This document shows positions 5,018-47,140 of a stretch of DNA of 64,000 nucleotides, in pieces. Location: NCBI GenBank assembly GCA_029266335.1, contig JAQSXC010000012.1, positions 1-64,000 of the forward strand, given 5' to 3'. The translations under genes were made by a program, and so were the position numbers. The notes under the pieces are model-generated. The model made no database searches and was not told the DNA's origin. It worked only from the letters and a program-made list of their open reading frames with translations. How positions within the stretch are numbered: the stretch's first letter is position 1; each line of letters starts with the position of its first letter. This stretch comes from Eubacterium sp. (GTDB lineage: Bacteria > Bacillota > Clostridia > Acetivibrionales > DSM-1351).

Positions 5018-5047
5018 TTAAAAAGGCCAAATCCAAATGATTTGACC
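5018..5047 (-). terminator. Riboswitch-linked intrinsic terminator ahead of serC
   Basis: On the minus strand GGTCAAATC pairs with GGATTTGGCC (one G-T pair) around a short loop and is followed by TTTTT. It sits between the glycine aptamers and serC, about 45 nt before the start codon. It is the natural expression platform for transcription control by the riboswitch. Confidence 0.75.
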
Positions 5048-5095
5048 TCTGAAATGCAAAATAAACACCATATTTTAATATAAAATATGTTCCAA

Positions 5096-5262
5096 AATGC
5101 ATACTCTGTCCTTTTGCCTGAGAGATTGACGGGATTACCCGTATTGCCCCTTCGGCGCCATCTTAATGGTCTCTCCAGAGGTCCGTCCTGATGAAGTCCC
5201 CTTATACCTGAGAGTGCTACTCCTTCGGTGTCCTTTTGCACGCAAAAGGAACTCTCCTCCAT
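5096..5262 (-). promoter_or_regulatory. Tandem glycine riboswitch (gcvT type)
   Basis: Read on the minus strand, two consecutive aptamers are visible. The first runs from GGAGGAGAG through ACCGAAGGAGTAGCACTCTC to AGG. The second runs from ACCTCTGGAGAGACC through GCGCCGAAGGGGCAA to ATCTCTCAGGCAAAAGGAC. The GGAGAG...CCGAAGG...CTCTCAGG pattern repeated twice with a short linker is the signature of the glycine riboswitch. It leads into a terminator and then serC-serA. Glycine riboswitches most often control glycine cleavage operons or glycine transporters, so a serine synthesis target is less usual. An apparent minus-strand reading frame across this region is a shadow of the RNA. Confidence 0.93.
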
Positions 5263-5300
5263 CAATCATCCGACACTATTAAGTTAACTACATTATATTA

Positions 5301-22026: not shown

Positions 22027-22404
22027 ATGAAACCCGGAGAATATTTTATTGAAAACGAATTTATTACCTTGAACAAGGGAAGGAACAAAACTACCATCAA
22101 GGTTTCAAATACAGGAGACCGGCCGGTACAGGTAGGCTCCCATTTCCATTTCTTTGAGGTAAACAAGTGTCTGGATTTTGACAGGAGTCAAAGCTTTGGC
22201 AGAAGACTGGATATACCTTCGGGAACAGCTGTCAGGTTTGAACCCGGAGAAGAAAAGGAAGTAGACTTGGTTGATTTGGGAGGTAACAGGGCAGTCTATG
22301 GCCTGAACGGATTAACAATGGGCAGCGTCGGGGATAAGCTGGTCTGCAGGAGTTCCATGGAGAAGGCTGCCAAGCTTGCATTCAAAGGAGTTGATAACAA
22401 ATGA
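22027..22404 (+). CDS. ureB: Urease beta subunit
   Basis: A 125-residue beta-barrel subunit. It begins [19 protein letters not shown] and contains the family segments [36 protein letters not shown] and YGLNGLTMG. The start has TTAGGAGG upstream. It overlaps ureC by four bases (ATGA), which implies coupled translation. Confidence 0.96.
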
Positions 22405-24119
22405 GCTACACTATGAGAGGCAGAGATTATGCCGATATGTATGGCCCAACCAAAGGGGATAGAGTACGGCTGGCCGATACCGAGCTTTTATTGGAAATAG
22501 AAGAAGACTATACGGTTTATGGGGATGAAAGCAAATTTGGAGGCGGTAAATCCATAAGGGACGGTATGGGACAGTCCTCAACTGTTTCGAGAGAAGCCGG
22601 AGCACTGGATATGCTTATAACCAATGCAATAATTATAGACTCCTGGGGTATTGTAAAAGGAGACATAGGTATAAAGGACGGTAAAATAGTGGGTATCGGC
22701 AAGTCGGGAAATCCGGACACCATGGATGGAGTTACACCCGGACTGGTTATCGGAGCCGCTACCGAGGTAATAGCCGGAGAAGGCCTGATTGCAACGGCAG
22801 GAGGAATAGATACTCACATTCATTTTATTTGCCCGCAGCAGATTGAAACTGCACTGTACAGCGGCATTACAACCATGATAGGGGGAGGCACCGGCCCGGC
22901 CGACGGAACTAATGCCACAACCTGCACACCCGGGAAATACAACATGTTCAGAATGCTTGAAGCAGCAGAGGCCTTTCCGATGAATCTGGGCTTTCTGGGC
23001 AAGGGTAATGCAGCTTTTCCCGATCCTCTTATAGAACAGATAGAGGCCGGTGCTATCGGGTTAAAGCTTCATGAAGACTGGGGTACCACTCCCAAAGCAA
23101 TAGATACCTGTCTCAGTGTGGCTGATCAGTATGATGTACAGGTGGCAATACACACAGATACTTTAAATGAGGCTGGTTTTGTAGAAGATACAATAAATGC
23201 AATTAACGGAAGGACCATTCACACCTTCCATACCGAAGGTGCCGGAGGCGGCCATGCCCCGGATATTATTAAAATAGCGGCTTTTCAGAATGTATTGCCT
23301 TCTTCCACCAATCCAACCATGCCATTTACTATAAATACAATTGATGAACACCTTGATATGCTGATGGTTTGCCATCATCTGGACAGTAAAATACGGGAAG
23401 ATGTAGCTTTCGCAGACTCCAGAATCAGGCCTGAGACAATTGCCGCGGAAGATATACTGCATGATATGGGAGTTTTCAGTATGATGAGCTCCGATTCACA
23501 GGCTATGGGCAGGGTAGGAGAAGTAATAATCAGAACCTGGCAGACAGCCGACAAAATGAAAAAGCAGAGAGGGCCCTTAAGCTCTGACAGCAATAGAAAT
23601 GACAATACACGCATCAAAAGATACATTTCCAAATATACAATAAATCCCGCAATAACCCATGGCATCTCAAGGTATGTAGGTTCGCTTGGAACTGGCAAAC
23701 TGGCTGATATTGTGCTTTGGAAGCCGGCAATGTTCGGAGTGAAGCCTGAAATGATTTTAAAGGGTGGTTTTATAATAGCCAGTAAAATGGGGGATGCCAA
23801 TGCATCAATACCTACACCGCAGCCGGTAATATACAAAAATATGTTCGGAGCTTTCGGCGGTGCATTGAATACAACATGTATGACTTTTGTTTCAAAGCTG
23901 TCCCTGGAATCCGGAACACTTGATTCCCTCAAGCTTCGGAAAATGCTTGTTCCGGTCAGCGGGTGCAGAAAGGTTACCAAAAAAGACATGGTAATGAACG
24001 ATGCAACTCCCGGAATAGAAGTAAACCCGGAGACATATGAAGTGCGGGTGGATGGGGAGCATATTACCTGTAAGCCAATGGAAAAGCTCTCACTTGCACA
24101 GAGATATTTTCTGTTTTAG
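22401..24119 (+). CDS. ureC: Urease alpha (catalytic) subunit
   Basis: The nickel enzyme that hydrolyses urea to ammonia and carbamate. The 572 residues match the normal length. Active-site landmarks are HIH (H139, H141) in [14 protein letters not shown], the carbamylated lysine K222 in [41 protein letters not shown], the flap with [10 protein letters not shown], and the metal aspartate in [12 protein letters not shown]. All metal ligands appear intact. Maturation factors ureE-F, ureG and ureD follow on the same strand, so the operon seems complete apart from a nickel importer. Confidence 0.97.
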
Positions 24120-31558: not shown

Positions 31559-31584
31559 ATTAGGCATGATAAAATAATTTAAAA

Positions 31585-31906
31585 GCGATGAGCAAGAGGA
31601 GTAGCAGTGAGTTTTCTGCAGAGAGGAGCCGGTGGGTGCAAGGCTCTGAAATAAGCTGGCGAAGGTAGCTTGGGAGCTCTGTAACCGAATAAGGTAAATT
31701 ACAGCAGTGATTTACTTTGACAGTAGGCTGCAGCGGGTGTCAAACGTTAATTGATAAGAGATTCATTACAGGATTGTTTAGAGTTTAGTATGGTTATAAA
31801 ATTGGATTAATACTTTCCGATTATATTAAAATCTAAAAATCCATTATGAAATTTTGGTGGTACCGCGAAATAACAGCTTCGTCCAAATATTGGACGAGGC
31901 TTTTTT
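31585..31906 (+). promoter_or_regulatory. T-box leader, probably valine-tRNA responsive
   Basis: Begins GCGATGAGCAAGAGGAGTAGCAG, contains GAGAGGAGCCGGTGGGTGCAAGGCTC and CTTGGGAGCT of stem I, and ends with the T-box GGTGGTACCGCG (31856-31867). A terminator GCTTCGTCCA/TGGACGAGGC with six Ts follows (31876-31906). A GTA triplet at 31665-31667, just before TTGGGAGC, is the likely specifier codon (Val), which agrees with valS downstream. Uncharged tRNA-Val would favour the antiterminator. Confidence 0.9.
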
Positions 31907-32270: not shown

Positions 32271-32365
32271 TTATTTACGCGCGCCTTTACGGCTTGGTGT
32301 TTGTTTTTACGTATTATTTAACTTATTTTTACAGGCTGGATTCAAAGAAAATGGAGGAAGAATTT

Positions 32366-35017
32366 ATGGATGAGCAACAAAACATTGCAAAACAGTATGA
32401 TCCCGGTCAGGTTGAGGACAGGCTGTACTCAAAATGGATGGAAGAGGGTTATTTCCACGCTGTTCCCGACAGCAACAAAAAGCCTTTCACAATTGTAATA
32501 CCACCGCCAAATATAACAGGGCAGCTCCATATGGGACATGCGCTTGACAATACTTTGCAGGATATTCTCATAAGAACAAAAAGAATGCAGGGCTACAGCG
32601 CTTTGTGGCTTCCCGGCACCGACCATGCAAGTATAGCAACCGAAGCCAAAATTGTTGATGCCATGGCTAAAGAAGGCATTACAAAGGAAATGCTCGGGAG
32701 GGAAAAATTCCTGGAAAGAGCCTGGGAATGGAAGAAGGTTTATGGCGGCAGGATCGTTGAACAGCTGAAAAAACTGGGAAGCTCCTGTGATTGGGAACGC
32801 GAACGCTTTACAATGGATGAAGGTCTATCCGAGGCTGTTCAGGAGGTATTCCTCAAGCTCTATGAAAAAGGTCTGATCTACAAGGGGGAAAGAATAACCA
32901 ACTGGTGTCCTAAATGTAATACTTCAATATCGGATATTGAGGTTGAATATGAGGAGCAGGCAGGTCATTTCTGGCACATCAAGTATCCTGTAAAGGACAG
33001 TGACGAGTTTGTCATAGTGGCTACCACCCGTCCTGAAACAATGCTTGGAGATACTGCTGTTGCAGTAAATCCGGAAGATGAAAGATATACTCATCTTGTA
33101 GGCAAGACATTGATATTGCCGCTGGTAAACAAAGAAATACCTGTCATTGCAGACTCTTACGTCGATAAGGAATTTGGTACCGGTTGTGTTAAAATCACTC
33201 CTGCACATGATCCCAACGACTATGAGGTTGGTTTGAGACATGACCTTCCGCAGGTAAGGGTAATGGATGACAATGCAATAATGAATGACAATGCGGGACA
33301 ATATAAAGGCATGGACAGATACCAGGCCAGAAAGAAAATGGTTGAGGATCTGGAAAAGCTGGGCCTGTTGGTCAAGGTTGAAGGACATACTCACAATGTC
33401 GGCACCTGTCAAAGATGCAGAACAGTTGTTGAGCCTCTGATTTCAAAGCAGTGGTATGTAAGGATGAAGCCTTTGGCAGAGCCTGCAATTGATGTAGTTA
33501 GAAACGGAACAATAAAGTTTGTTCCTGAAAGATTTTCAAAGATTTATTTCAACTGGATGGAAAACATACAGGACTGGTGTATTTCCAGACAGCTCTGGTG
33601 GGGACACAGAATCCCTGCGTACTACTGCCAGGAATGCGGACACATGATGGTGACCGGCACTGATCCAGATGTATGTCCGAAGTGCGGAAGCGCCAGAATA
33701 GAGCAGGATCCCGATACACTCGACACCTGGTTCAGCTCTGCTTTGTGGCCTTTCTCTACACTTGGCTGGCCTGCCGAAACAGAGGATCTGAAGTATTTCT
33801 ATCCCACAAATGTTCTTGTAACAGGCTATGACATAATATTCTTCTGGGTTGCAAGAATGATATTCTCCGGTATGGAGCATATGAAGCAGGAGCCGTTCAA
33901 GTATGTATTCATTCACGGTATTGTAAGAGATCCTCAGGGAAGGAAGATGAGCAAATCCCTCGGAAACGGAATTGATCCGCTGGAGGTTATTGCACAGTAT
34001 GGTACAGATGCTCTGCGCTTTGCGCTGACCATTGGTAACTCACCGGGAAATGACTTGAGATTCTCAAGCGAAAAGGTTGAATCCTCAAGAAACTTTGCAA
34101 ACAAGGTTTGGAACGCATCAAGATTTGTATTGATGAACTTTGATGAGAATCTGGATTTCGGCAAGGTGGATAAAAATAAGTTTACTATTGCCGACAGATG
34201 GATTCTCAGCAGAATAAACACAGTAACAAAAGAAGTGACCGACAATATAGATAAATTTGAGCTTGGACTGGGCTTGCAGAAGGTTTATGACTTCATTTGG
34301 GAGGAATTCTGCGACTGGTATATTGAAATGGTCAAGCCGAGACTTTACGACAGGGAAAGTGAAGGAAGACTGGAAGCACAGTATGTGCTCAACTTCGTAC
34401 TGGGTAACGCAATGAAGCTGCTGCATCCATATATGCCTTTCATTACAGAGGAGATATACACACATCTCATAAATGACGGCAGAAGCATAATGATTTCTGA
34501 ATGGCCGGTTTACAGCGAAGAGCTTAACTTTGCTGACGATGAAGCTAAAATGAAAATTATCATGGATGCAATCAGAAGCACCAGAAATATCCGTGCAGAA
34601 ATGAATGTTCCGCCTTCAAGAAAAGCCAAAATGATATTTGTGGCAGAAGGTGAAGCAGAAAGAGCGACCTTGCTGGAAGGGACCTCCTTCTTCCAAAGGC
34701 TGGCAAGTGCCTCGGAAGTAGCAGTACAGGCTGACAAGGCAGGAGTACCTTCAGATGCTGTAGGTACTGTTATAGCAGGAGCAGAAATATTTATACCTCT
34801 GGATGAACTGATTGATATCGAAAAGGAAATCGAGCGACTTACCAAGGAAAAGGCCAACCTTGAGGGTGAGCTTAAGAGAGTTGAAGGAAAGCTCGGAAAT
34901 GAAGGCTTTGTTGCAAAGGCTCCCCCTAAGGTAATTGAAGAGGAAAAAGCAAAGAGGGAAAAATACAAGGATATGTACCAGAAGGTAGTTGAAAGACTGG
35001 AAAGTTTGAAGAAATAA
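32366..35017 (+). CDS. valS: Valyl-tRNA synthetase
   Basis: An 883-residue class I synthetase that charges tRNA-Val. The ATG at 32366 follows GGAGGAAGAATTT; upstream in-frame codons lack a site. Motifs: HIGH-type [17 protein letters not shown] (about residue 45), editing domain [17 protein letters not shown], two zinc-like CxxC pairs (CPKC and CPKCGS), GWP before the core, and [17 protein letters not shown] (KMSKS). The C-terminal 65 residues form the charged coiled coil typical of ValRS. Controlled by the T-box leader at 31,585-31,906. Confidence 0.97.
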
Positions 35018-44519: not shown

Positions 44520-44689
44520 ATAATAAGAGAAGATGGAAAGGAAGAAGATTTTTCCTTTTTTATTGATACTGATAATACTTTGCAGCAATAATATTTGCAG
44601 AAATAATATGTTGCAAAGCATTTAATGAATTAATTACATAAAATCAGGGGGGTGGAAGAAAGCCCGGGATTAAAAAATGAAATAAAAAG

Positions 44690-44903
44690 GCGCCAGGGCA
44701 GACCGTATATAATATCAATAATACGTCTGTTGACGAGGTGAAGGAAGCGATTCACAAACAAGCGTGGATCGTATCGAAAGATTCGGCGGATACCTTCCGG
44801 TTGTTACAATCGAAAGAAGCTGAGGACAGCAAATTGTCCTCCGGAACAAAAAGTGTTCCGGCACAAAACTTGCAGGCGACTGCAAAACAAAGAGGCTTCA
44901 CGT
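44690..44903 (+). ncRNA. glmS ribozyme: glmS ribozyme
   Basis: Starts with GCGCCAGGGCAGAC at the cleavage site, has the core GTTGACGAGGTG pseudoknot segment, CGTATCGAAAGATTCGGCGGATAC, the P4-like hairpin GGACAGCAAATTGTCC, and GCAGGCGACTGCAAAACAAAGAGG near the 3' end. Glucosamine-6-phosphate acts as the cofactor for self-cleavage, which destabilises the glmS mRNA. It lies about 400 bp before glmS. The base before the cleavage site seems to be G rather than the commoner A. Confidence 0.93.
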
Positions 44904-45310
44904 AACTAATCCTGTATCACATCTATTTTATAATCAAATATTAAAAATTTAAAATCAAAACCAAAGAATATTTTTGATGCTTTTGTATTGCATTGTAAGT
45001 GTTAAGGCCCTGCTATGCCTATCCATAAAAAAATCATGGCTCAGGGGTTCTGAAATCATGCGCAGAAACTGACTTTATTGGGCAAACTATGTCTATTGGC
45101 GGTTTCTCATATAAAAGTCTGCTAATACAAAGGTCCGAAAGTATTGAAACCCAGTATTTTAGTTGTTTTATGTCAACCTGAAATGCTGCCTGAGTTTTAC
45201 CATGCCTACTTACTTATTTTTATTTAACGAACATAAGAACCCGGGAATAATTGTGCCATTTTGTTGGCAATGAGTTTAATTTATAAATTAAAGATTAAGG
45301 AGAATTAATT
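44904..45310. other. Long untranslated segment between the ribozyme and glmS
   Basis: About 400 bp with no supported gene. It contains no clear terminator. Several short stem-forming stretches are present (around 45,005-45,060). The ribosome site TAAGGAG lies 9 bp before the glmS start. Confidence 0.5.
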
Positions 45311-47140
45311 ATGTGTGGAATAGTTGGATATATTGGAAATAAAAAAGCAATACCTGTACTTATAAACGGACTTTCAAAGCTTGAATACAGAGGTTATGAT
45401 TCTGCCGGTGTTTCAGTAAATGAAGATGGCGTTCTCAGGGTAATCAAATGCAAGGGAAGATTATCCTGCCTGGAAGACAGGCTGGAAACCGAGAAGCTGG
45501 AAGGCTGCATGGGAATCGGTCATACCAGATGGGCAACCCATGGTGAACCAAATGATGTGAATTCTCACCCCCATATCAGCCAGAGCGGCGAAATAGCTGT
45601 TGTTCATAACGGTATTATTGAAAACTATATGCAGATAAAGGAATTCCTTATCAGTCAGGGCTATACCTTCCAGTCTGAAACAGATACGGAGGTTATAGCT
45701 CATCTGGTTGAATATTATTATGACGGAAATCTTGTGGATGCAGTAATGAAGGTGATCGATGAAATTGAAGGCTCATACGCCTTGGGCGTACTTTGCAGGA
45801 ATCAACAGGATATGTTTGTTTGCGCAAGGAAGGACAGTCCATTGATAATCGGCCTGGGCAAGGGTGAAAACTTTATTGCGTCGGATATCCCTGCCATACT
45901 TGAGTACACCAGAGATATTTACATCCTGGAAGACAAGGAAGTTGCCATTCTCACCAGAGATAAGGTTCAGGTATTCAACAGTCTTGGGGCACCAGTCAAG
46001 AAGGAGGTCTTCAAGGTTGACTGGAATGTGGAAGCAGCTGAAAAAGGCGGTTTTGAACATTTCATGATGAAGGAGATGTACGAAGAGCCAAAAGTTATCA
46101 GGGATACAATCAATCCAAGAATCAAAAATGGCGAACTGGTGCTGGATTCAATAAATATCACCAGAGAAGATATCGACAAGCTTGAGAAAATATATATAGT
46201 GGCCTGCGGAACAGCATATCACGCAGGTGTTGTAGGCAAATACATCATTGAAAAGCTGTGCAGAATACCTGTTGAAGTGGATGTGGCATCGGAATTCAGA
46301 TATCGTGATCCTCTGATAAGCGAAAAGAATCTGACAATAATAATCAGCCAGTCAGGCGAAACCCTGGATACGCTGTTTGCGCTCAGAGAGGCTAAGAAGA
46401 GCGGTTCCAGAATACTTTCAATAGTTAATGTTGTAGGAAGCTCAATAGCACGTGATTCGGATGACGTGCTCTATACCTGGGCAGGACCTGAAATAGCGGT
46501 TGCTTCAACAAAGGCATATAATACGCAGCTTACAGCTCTTTATTTGATAGCGCTTGACCTTGGACTAAAGAAGGGTACTATTACAAAGGAGCAGGCAAAT
46601 GCAATTCTTGATGAAATGAAGAAAATACCTGCAGGTATTGAAGAGATACTGAAGGACAAGGATGGAATACAGAAGTTTGCACATGCTCACTTCAACTCAA
46701 AGAGCATTTTCTTCATAGGCAGAAGCCTTGACTACGCACTTTCCATGGAGGGCTCCCTGAAGCTGAAGGAAATCTCGTACATTCACTCGGAGGCTTATGC
46801 CGGCGGAGAGCTCAAACACGGAACCATTGCCCTTATCGAAAAAGGAACTCTGGTAGTATGCCCTATGACACAGGACTCACTGTTTGAGAAGATGGTCAGT
46901 AATATCAGAGAGGTTAAGGCAAGAGGAGCAGTTGTGCTGGCAATTACCCAGGAAAAGCACAGAGAAGAGCTTGAGAAAACAGCAGACATGGTTCTCACAA
47001 TTCCGGATGTTGACTCACTTGCAGCCCCGATATCAGCAGTAACGCCGCTGCAGTTGTTTGCCTACTACATGGCAATCGAAAGAGGCTGTGACGTGGATAA
47101 GCCGAGGTTTGTTGAAAGAAGACATTGTGATGAATCATAA
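45311..47140 (+). CDS. glmS: Glucosamine-6-phosphate synthase with altered C-terminal tail
   Basis: A 609-residue glutamine:fructose-6-phosphate amidotransferase. The glutaminase domain has catalytic Cys2 in MCGIVGYIG; two SIS isomerase domains follow (CGTAYHAGVVGKY, SQSGETLDTLFAL, STKAYNTQL, KLKEISYIHSEAYAGGELKHG). GlmS proteins normally end with ...DVDKPRNLAKSVTVE, whose lysine (K603 in E. coli) forms a Schiff base with fructose-6-phosphate. Here the chain reads ...DVDKPR and then FVERRHCDES, with no lysine, and the stop lies in the presumed end of the Tn7-like element. The enzyme may thus be impaired, or another copy may exist. No frameshift restores the normal tail nearby. Confidence 0.9.
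   Translation: MCGIVGYIGNKKAIPVLINGLSKLEYRGYDSAGVSVNEDGVLRVIKCKGRLSCLEDRLETEKLEGCMGIGHTRWATHGEPNDVNSHPHISQSGEIAVVHNGIIENYMQIKEFLISQGYTFQSETDTEVIAHLVEYYYDGNLVDAVMKVIDEIEGSYALGVLCRNQQDMFVCARKDSPLIIGLGKGENFIASDIPAILEYTRDIYILEDKEVAILTRDKVQVFNSLGAPVKKEVFKVDWNVEAAEKGGFEHFMMKEMYEEPKVIRDTINPRIKNGELVLDSINITREDIDKLEKIYIVACGTAYHAGVVGKYIIEKLCRIPVEVDVASEFRYRDPLISEKNLTIIISQSGETLDTLFALREAKKSGSRILSIVNVVGSSIARDSDDVLYTWAGPEIAVASTKAYNTQLTALYLIALDLGLKKGTITKEQANAILDEMKKIPAGIEEILKDKDGIQKFAHAHFNSKSIFFIGRSLDYALSMEGSLKLKEISYIHSEAYAGGELKHGTIALIEKGTLVVCPMTQDSLFEKMVSNIREVKARGAVVLAITQEKHREELEKTADMVLTIPDVDSLAAPISAVTPLQLFAYYMAIERGCDVDKPRFVERRHCDES

Follow-up and report, generated by a model that had tools for sequence, protein, structure and literature searches.

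The locus examined here raises two questions, namely what a tandem glycine riboswitch does ahead of genes for serine synthesis and in which direction it acts. It lies on the minus strand of the window, i.e., the whole 64,000-nt stretch of DNA that was analysed. The switch is genuine and well formed, its class is known, and its target and an OFF prediction are already in print. serC was listed under a glycine riboswitch in metagenomes in 2007 (Kazanov, PMC2211319), followed in 2013 by serC with serA in one Clostridium species (Sun, PMC3766115). In the accessible text of these two papers, the same type of target as in the window is listed and no switch mechanism is given. The 2013 survey attributed on average 67% of targets to glycine metabolism and 15% to transporters, which fits the statement in the first-pass annotation that glycine breakdown or transport is the role of most known targets, and its accessible text describes serine genes as rarely under glycine riboswitches (PMC3766115).

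The closest published system, judged from the part of the article available, is a leader combining a glycine riboswitch with a serine T-box, T-box(Ser), ahead of serC/serA/serS, for which OFF control was predicted (RNA Biol, 2022; PMC9481103). Like the window leader, it has two aptamers and is predicted to act as an OFF switch on serine synthesis. Unlike that system, the window leader contained no T-box at gathering score, and none was found in the 19 serC loci of relatives that were searched. The only T-box in the window (31579-31889, plus strand) is a leader ahead of a valyl-tRNA-synthetase-like ORF (32294-35017, named by eye). What the present analysis adds is the mechanism at the level of letters, a contrast between ON and OFF within one genus, and the scale across one order. 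In the accessible text of the literature searched (e.g., PMC2258182, PMC6944388, PMC7266159, PMC12452182, and PMC8991567; subscription journals and supplementary tables lay outside the search), no description was found of glycine OFF switches on serA, serC, and glyA as a set spanning an order.

The tandem aptamer and its operon

The features of the leader and operon are listed in Table 1. Both aptamers exceeded the RF00504 gathering score of 32, in agreement with the class named in the first-pass annotation, and they were the only RF00504 matches in the assembled genome. They stand back to back and share one terminator, and their cores are canonical. The interval first assigned to the element (5018-5262) covers it, on the minus strand, except for the initial bases of aptamer 1, which are cut off.

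Table 1. Features of the riboswitch leader and the serC-serA operon (positions in the window).
Feature	Position	Strand	Basis
Promoter-like TTGACT-17-TATAAT	5329-5301	minus	11/12 consensus matches
Glycine riboswitch aptamer 1	5269-5184	minus	RF00504, 51.7 bits, E 2.0e-9
Glycine riboswitch aptamer 2, canonical core	5188-5096	minus	RF00504, 64.5 bits, E 4.2e-11
Aptamer 2 P1 5' strand, GACCUCUG, common to P1 and putative antiterminator	5183-5176	minus	Rfam alignment; columns 6-13 of alignment A1
Aptamer 2 P1 3' strand, CAGAG, predicted partner in the glycine-bound state	5108-5104	minus	Rfam alignment; five P1 pairs identical in 55/55 aligned leaders
Putative antiterminator 3' strand, UUUCAGAGGUC, which duplicates the P1 3' strand and overlaps the terminator 5' arm	5054-5044	minus	Alignment and folding
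Spacer of ~50 nt between aptamer 2 and terminator, hairpin possible		minus	Predicted folding
Intrinsic terminator: 12-bp stem 5050-5039/5033-5022, 5-nt loop, U-tract 5024-5020	5050-5020	minus	Read from sequence; stem covariation across the 55-leader alignment
Likely ribosome binding site, AAAGGAG	4986-4980	minus	Sequence
serC, phosphoserine aminotransferase	4972-3893	minus	NF003764 547.5 bits and TIGR01364 509.6 bits, both above cut-off
serA-type 3-phosphoglycerate dehydrogenase	3817-2606	minus	Above cut-off with PF00389 and PF02826; TIGR01327 score of 283.6 bits short of the 454 cut-off

Family membership suggests glycine as the ligand. A variant of the glycine riboswitch with another ligand, e.g., one tied to serine, was considered since glycine-rejecting variants are described in the accessible text of PMC9481103 and since, in a permissive search, RF03166 (glycine-GGAnGA) matched the whole tandem with 85.3 bits. 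We regard this as improbable: the score is below the RF03166 gathering score of 110, whereas RF00504 was above its own for both aptamers, and the core of aptamer 2 carries the RF00504 letters wherever the RF03166 consensus differs. In addition, leaders with the same core precede glyA, and RF00504 glycine riboswitches precede gcvT and genes for the sodium:alanine/glycine symporter (AGCS).

The operon assigned earlier, serC followed by serA, was borne out by the SerC profiles and the dehydrogenase domains. The window SerC was 83% identical to that of R. cellobioparum (L032, L033), which belongs to the same genus, Ruminiclostridium, and a SerA match 3' of serC was also found in serC loci of relatives. 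Promoter-like sites in the region numbered 3, compared with 2.2 in shuffles, and such a match alone is weak; visual inspection also showed boxes resembling the one in Table 1 in several of the relatives' serC leaders. Transcription would start near 5294. The 266-nt leader folded better than 200 of 200 shuffles (z -3.35). An automatic consensus terminator scan of the region found 0 terminators and did not list the 5050-5020 hairpin. The terminator that had been claimed ahead of the serine synthesis genes was nevertheless upheld by its 12-bp stem and U-tract, the stem covarying among relatives (see below). A translational mechanism was set aside, the likely ribosome binding site lying outside the switching elements.

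Predicted exchange of strands in the leader

We propose, with a probability of roughly 85%, that the tandem riboswitch acts as a transcriptional OFF switch for serC-serA under high glycine. Once RNA polymerase has moved past aptamer 2, P1 (5180-5176 with 5108-5104) would be able to close. When 5051-5044 (CAGAGGUC), a longer copy of the P1 3' strand, emerges, it would take over the P1 5' strand. The resulting antiterminator would consist of 8 pairs, extended to 11 if the adjoining wobble and A-U pairs are counted, and would mask the start of the terminator 5' arm. With glycine bound, the aptamer would hold P1, the copy at 5051-5044 would be free to pair with 5033-5022, and transcription would stop at the U-tract, ~46 nt 5' of serC. 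With glycine scarce, the antiterminator would outlast the U-tract and serC-serA would be transcribed. The predicted design is of the classical OFF type with a strand copied from P1. The OFF sense, which had been raised as a possibility, is the best-supported reading on the grounds of the strand-sharing antiterminator and predicted folding; the direction of control is what we infer, as are its strength and cooperativity.

SerA and SerC act in the path to serine, and GlyA makes glycine from serine. The logic of the switch would be end-product repression of the route from 3-phosphoglycerate through serine to glycine. Control of serine synthesis, as first suggested, is retained in this proposal. 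Sensing of a serine-glycine balance, suggested along with it, is replaced by end-product control, which is simpler; in one relative (L120, genome G018) glyA lies in the same operon, with the order riboswitch-glyA-serC-serA.

In silico, strands 5183-5176 and 5051-5044 formed an antiterminator incompatible with P1 as well as with the terminator. Pairing between the terminator arm and aptamer 2, which had been put forward as a check, was thus seen in the ligand-free prediction, where the arm paired with the P1 5' strand. In partition-function predictions without ligand for transcripts growing from 5294, the antiterminator reached a probability of 0.99 once 5044 was made and 1.00 down to 5027, and the terminator reached 0.94 at 5021. 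In transcripts growing from 5190, also without ligand, P1 had a probability of 0.66 with aptamer 2 alone, the antiterminator reached 0.99 once 5044 was made, and the terminator took over between 5024 and 5021. When states were forced at 5018, the antiterminator had an energy of -49.4 kcal/mol and P1 with the terminator -49.3 kcal/mol, a gap within 0.1. Since the two end states are nearly equal in energy, the energy of the ligand could tip the balance, and glycine may supply the deciding part. Before the terminator 3' arm was made, the antiterminator beat P1 by ~12 kcal/mol in a model without K-turn, tertiary contacts, and kinetics, which we would expect to exceed what glycine binding alone could repay.

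In the finished, unconstrained window leader without ligand, the terminator was dominant (0.88-0.96), and the ON state would therefore depend on kinetics. A first whole-leader fold, in which the P1 region paired with bases past the terminator, was taken as an artefact of a transcript already beyond the terminator. The dominance of the terminator without ligand would also suit a relic, in which the terminator is constitutive and the level of serC-serA is set by promoter strength. A relic is very improbable given that the aptamer core was largely invariant, and the antiterminator pairing kept, across 55 leaders of many families.

These 55 synthesis leaders, including that of the window, form alignment A1, which spans the leader from aptamer 2 P1 to beyond the terminator; in L021, L025, L146, L168, L183, L188, and L193 the ends were placed by hand. 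The terminator was 95.5% paired, with changes on both sides in 30 cells compared with 7.0 expected (0 of 500 shuffles). The five pairs of P1 were invariant and so leave no room for covariation. The cells of the antiterminator were 86.8% paired, compared with 28.5-49.1% when the strands were slid by 1-3 columns. Covariation of the antiterminator was sought in the 55 leaders and none was found, within-column shuffles being 86.7% paired against the 86.8% observed. The support for the antiterminator is therefore conservation, which is partly also demanded by the terminator stem. Column 295, which lies outside the terminator stem (C in 44/55, U in 8/55), paired with G13 in 52/55.

Antiterminator runs of at least 6, 7, and 8 pairs were present in 38, 33, and 28 of 47 distinct rows, for which shuffled arms give expectations of 4.3, 1.1, and 0.4. 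Counted over all leaders, 43/55 had at least 6 contiguous pairs; the 12 with fewer included L120, with 1, and L113, among the nearest relatives, with 5. Energies were compared in 54 distinct aligned leaders and summarised for the 46 with an antiterminator run of at least 5. The antiterminator beat P1 before the 3' arm in all 46 (median -8.25 kcal/mol), and in the finished leader the terminator state won in 31/46 (median 1.8). Among the other 8 of the 54, outside the summary, the antiterminator was favoured before the 3' arm in 1 but not in the other 7.

Layout and targets in related genomes

RF00504 was sought in 100 genomes, that of the host included, and at least 61 were positive. A SerC match was present in 49 of the same 100 genomes (4 of them weak, at ~25% identity), and the riboswitch headed the serC operon in at least 10 of the 100, distributed over 7 families. 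In 80 named SerC loci, several of which end short upstream, a regular expression for the riboswitch core recovered only the two from R. cellobioparum.

The sample of sites comprised 103 loci among the matches listed, 99 of which had a site by regular expression (none in L173, L189, L194, and L195). Removal of the duplicates L019, L027, L030, and L031 left 95 sites, and the target class, defined as the first recognised downstream gene, was assigned by hand from a BLAST table. Glycine/serine synthesis genes were headed by 55 of these 95 sites among the matches listed: serC-serA (9), glyA-serC-serA (1), class V aminotransferase-serA (16), serA (8), and glyA (21). The remaining sites among the matches listed preceded AGCS symporter genes (20), gcvT (12), or other genes (8). 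Sites on synthesis genes occurred, by hand count, in at least 37 of 58 genomes of the same order, that of the host included, and in at least 1 of 42 genomes from other orders of the class. A target called rare in print thus belongs to the commonest use of the riboswitch class, namely synthesis genes, among the listed sites examined in one order.

Two further arrangements were seen among these loci. On one contig (G038:C4), two near-identical glycine riboswitch-serA units (L184, L185) lie ~12.5 kb apart. Two of the 8 sites in the class of other genes (L013, L187), likewise OFF-like in layout, precede a threonine-aldolase-like gene, i.e., another route to glycine.

An ON switch, in which glycine opens the terminator and raises serC-serA as in gcvT riboswitches, was weighed against the position of the terminator. 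P1 and a terminator do stand on one transcript in the window, and gcv-type glycine riboswitches are described as ON in the accessible text of PMC11477304. The gcvT leaders of the group, which have the same aptamer class and also a transcriptional terminator, use the P1 3' strand itself as a terminator arm, so that the terminator overlaps it. In the window, the terminator starts 54 nt downstream of this strand, P1 and the terminator can form together (joint energy -49.3 kcal/mol), and the alternative pairing identified for the terminator arm is in competition with P1. Induction of glycine synthesis by glycine would, in addition, be poor biology. We consider an ON switch unlikely.

The layout was measured with a second automatic terminator finder as the distance from the P1 3' strand; a first finder, which picked wrong hairpins in several leaders (e.g., L025, L186, L188, and L193), was rejected. 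Among the 55 synthesis leaders, the finder returned a terminator in 51 (none in L146, L159, L168, and L186), and this lay at least 20 nt past P1 in 49, including a spurious find in L188; in the two exceptions, L112 and L114, it wrongly picked an intermediate hairpin. The AGCS leaders had a terminator at least 20 nt past P1 in 19 of 20 (the choice being doubtful in L003 and L170). For gcvT, with 12 sites, a terminator was returned in 10 leaders; in 7 of these it began no more than 8 nt from the P1 3' strand, and the other 5 of the 12 showed the same overlap by eye. This gcvT layout, in which the P1 3' strand doubles as the terminator 5' arm, is the ON layout expected for glycine breakdown. The first-pass annotation had called OFF control rare for the class, which is wrong in this group, where the terminator lies downstream of P1 at most sites examined in relatives.

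An OFF sense has been reported for AGCS riboswitches of Vibrio cholerae and Streptococcus pyogenes (PMC11477304, in the text available). They resemble the window switch in that sense and differ in controlling uptake, and the AGCS sites of the genus had a single aptamer core by regular expression (8/8), whereas the window has a tandem. The expression platform tracks the expected sense of control, a brake on the making and import of glycine and an accelerator on its breakdown. On balance, we favour the view that the glycine riboswitch in this order is chiefly a feedback brake on glycine making, with one conserved OFF platform placed ahead of serA, of serC, of glyA, and, in other orders, of threonine-aldolase-like genes, serB not being among the genes considered; it would track the pathway rather than the gene.

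Both layouts occurred within one genome in R. cellobioparum (G001, G009), and G001, assigned to strain DSM 1351, has all three targets, i.e., serC-serA (L112), AGCS (L132), and gcvT (L131). Opposite layouts of the same aptamer class in one genome provide a natural pair for testing how the platform sets ON or OFF. In another locus (L174), a second copy of a GGAAGATGACAG terminator-like hairpin was found 3' of the gcvT riboswitch, ~165 nt downstream of the first.

Class V aminotransferases, host metabolism, and other window features

Among the matches listed, the 10 genomes whose serC is under a switch showed no switch on a class V aminotransferase gene. Conversely, of the 16 genomes in which class V aminotransferase-serA is headed by a switch, 15 had no SerC match; the exception (G005) had a distant SerC match, 59% identical, elsewhere in the genome. 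From the absence of SerC in these 15 genomes, the class V aminotransferase is therefore predicted to be the missing phosphoserine aminotransferase. As a prediction of gene function, a class V aminotransferase adjoining serA should make phosphoserine. The enzymes were of two kinds, 6 of the 16 being at least 77% identical to that of L133 and 10 being 33-35% identical. The best profile match of the L133 enzyme was an aspartate-glyoxylate aminotransferase (BhcA-like), far below the model cut-off, and its best match among solved chains was a serine-glyoxylate aminotransferase. Within Ruminiclostridium, the same switch stands before a class V aminotransferase gene and serA in L133, L134, L137, and L139, where SerC is absent or distant.

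The host genome encoded one GlyA, and no riboswitch match was present on its contig. Neither GcvT nor an AGCS symporter was found in the host genome (92.6% complete, 356 contigs). Pieces of GcvP were located on a contig of 3,360 bases, the end of which falls at gcvPA, and gcvT with its switch may therefore lie in an assembly gap, as may an AGCS gene. The view that the host lacks glycine cleavage and has the serC switch as its only glycine riboswitch was dropped as unsafe, because GcvP pieces are present.

Two other RNA matches were found in the window. A match to the Rfam family 5_ureB_sRNA (22555-22851, minus strand; 83 bits) lies antisense within a urease-alpha-like ORF (22401-24119, plus strand; named by eye), and more likely reflects conserved coding sequence than an sRNA. 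A glmS ribozyme (44678-44909, plus strand) was detected ahead of a GlmS-like ORF (45311-47140, named by eye).
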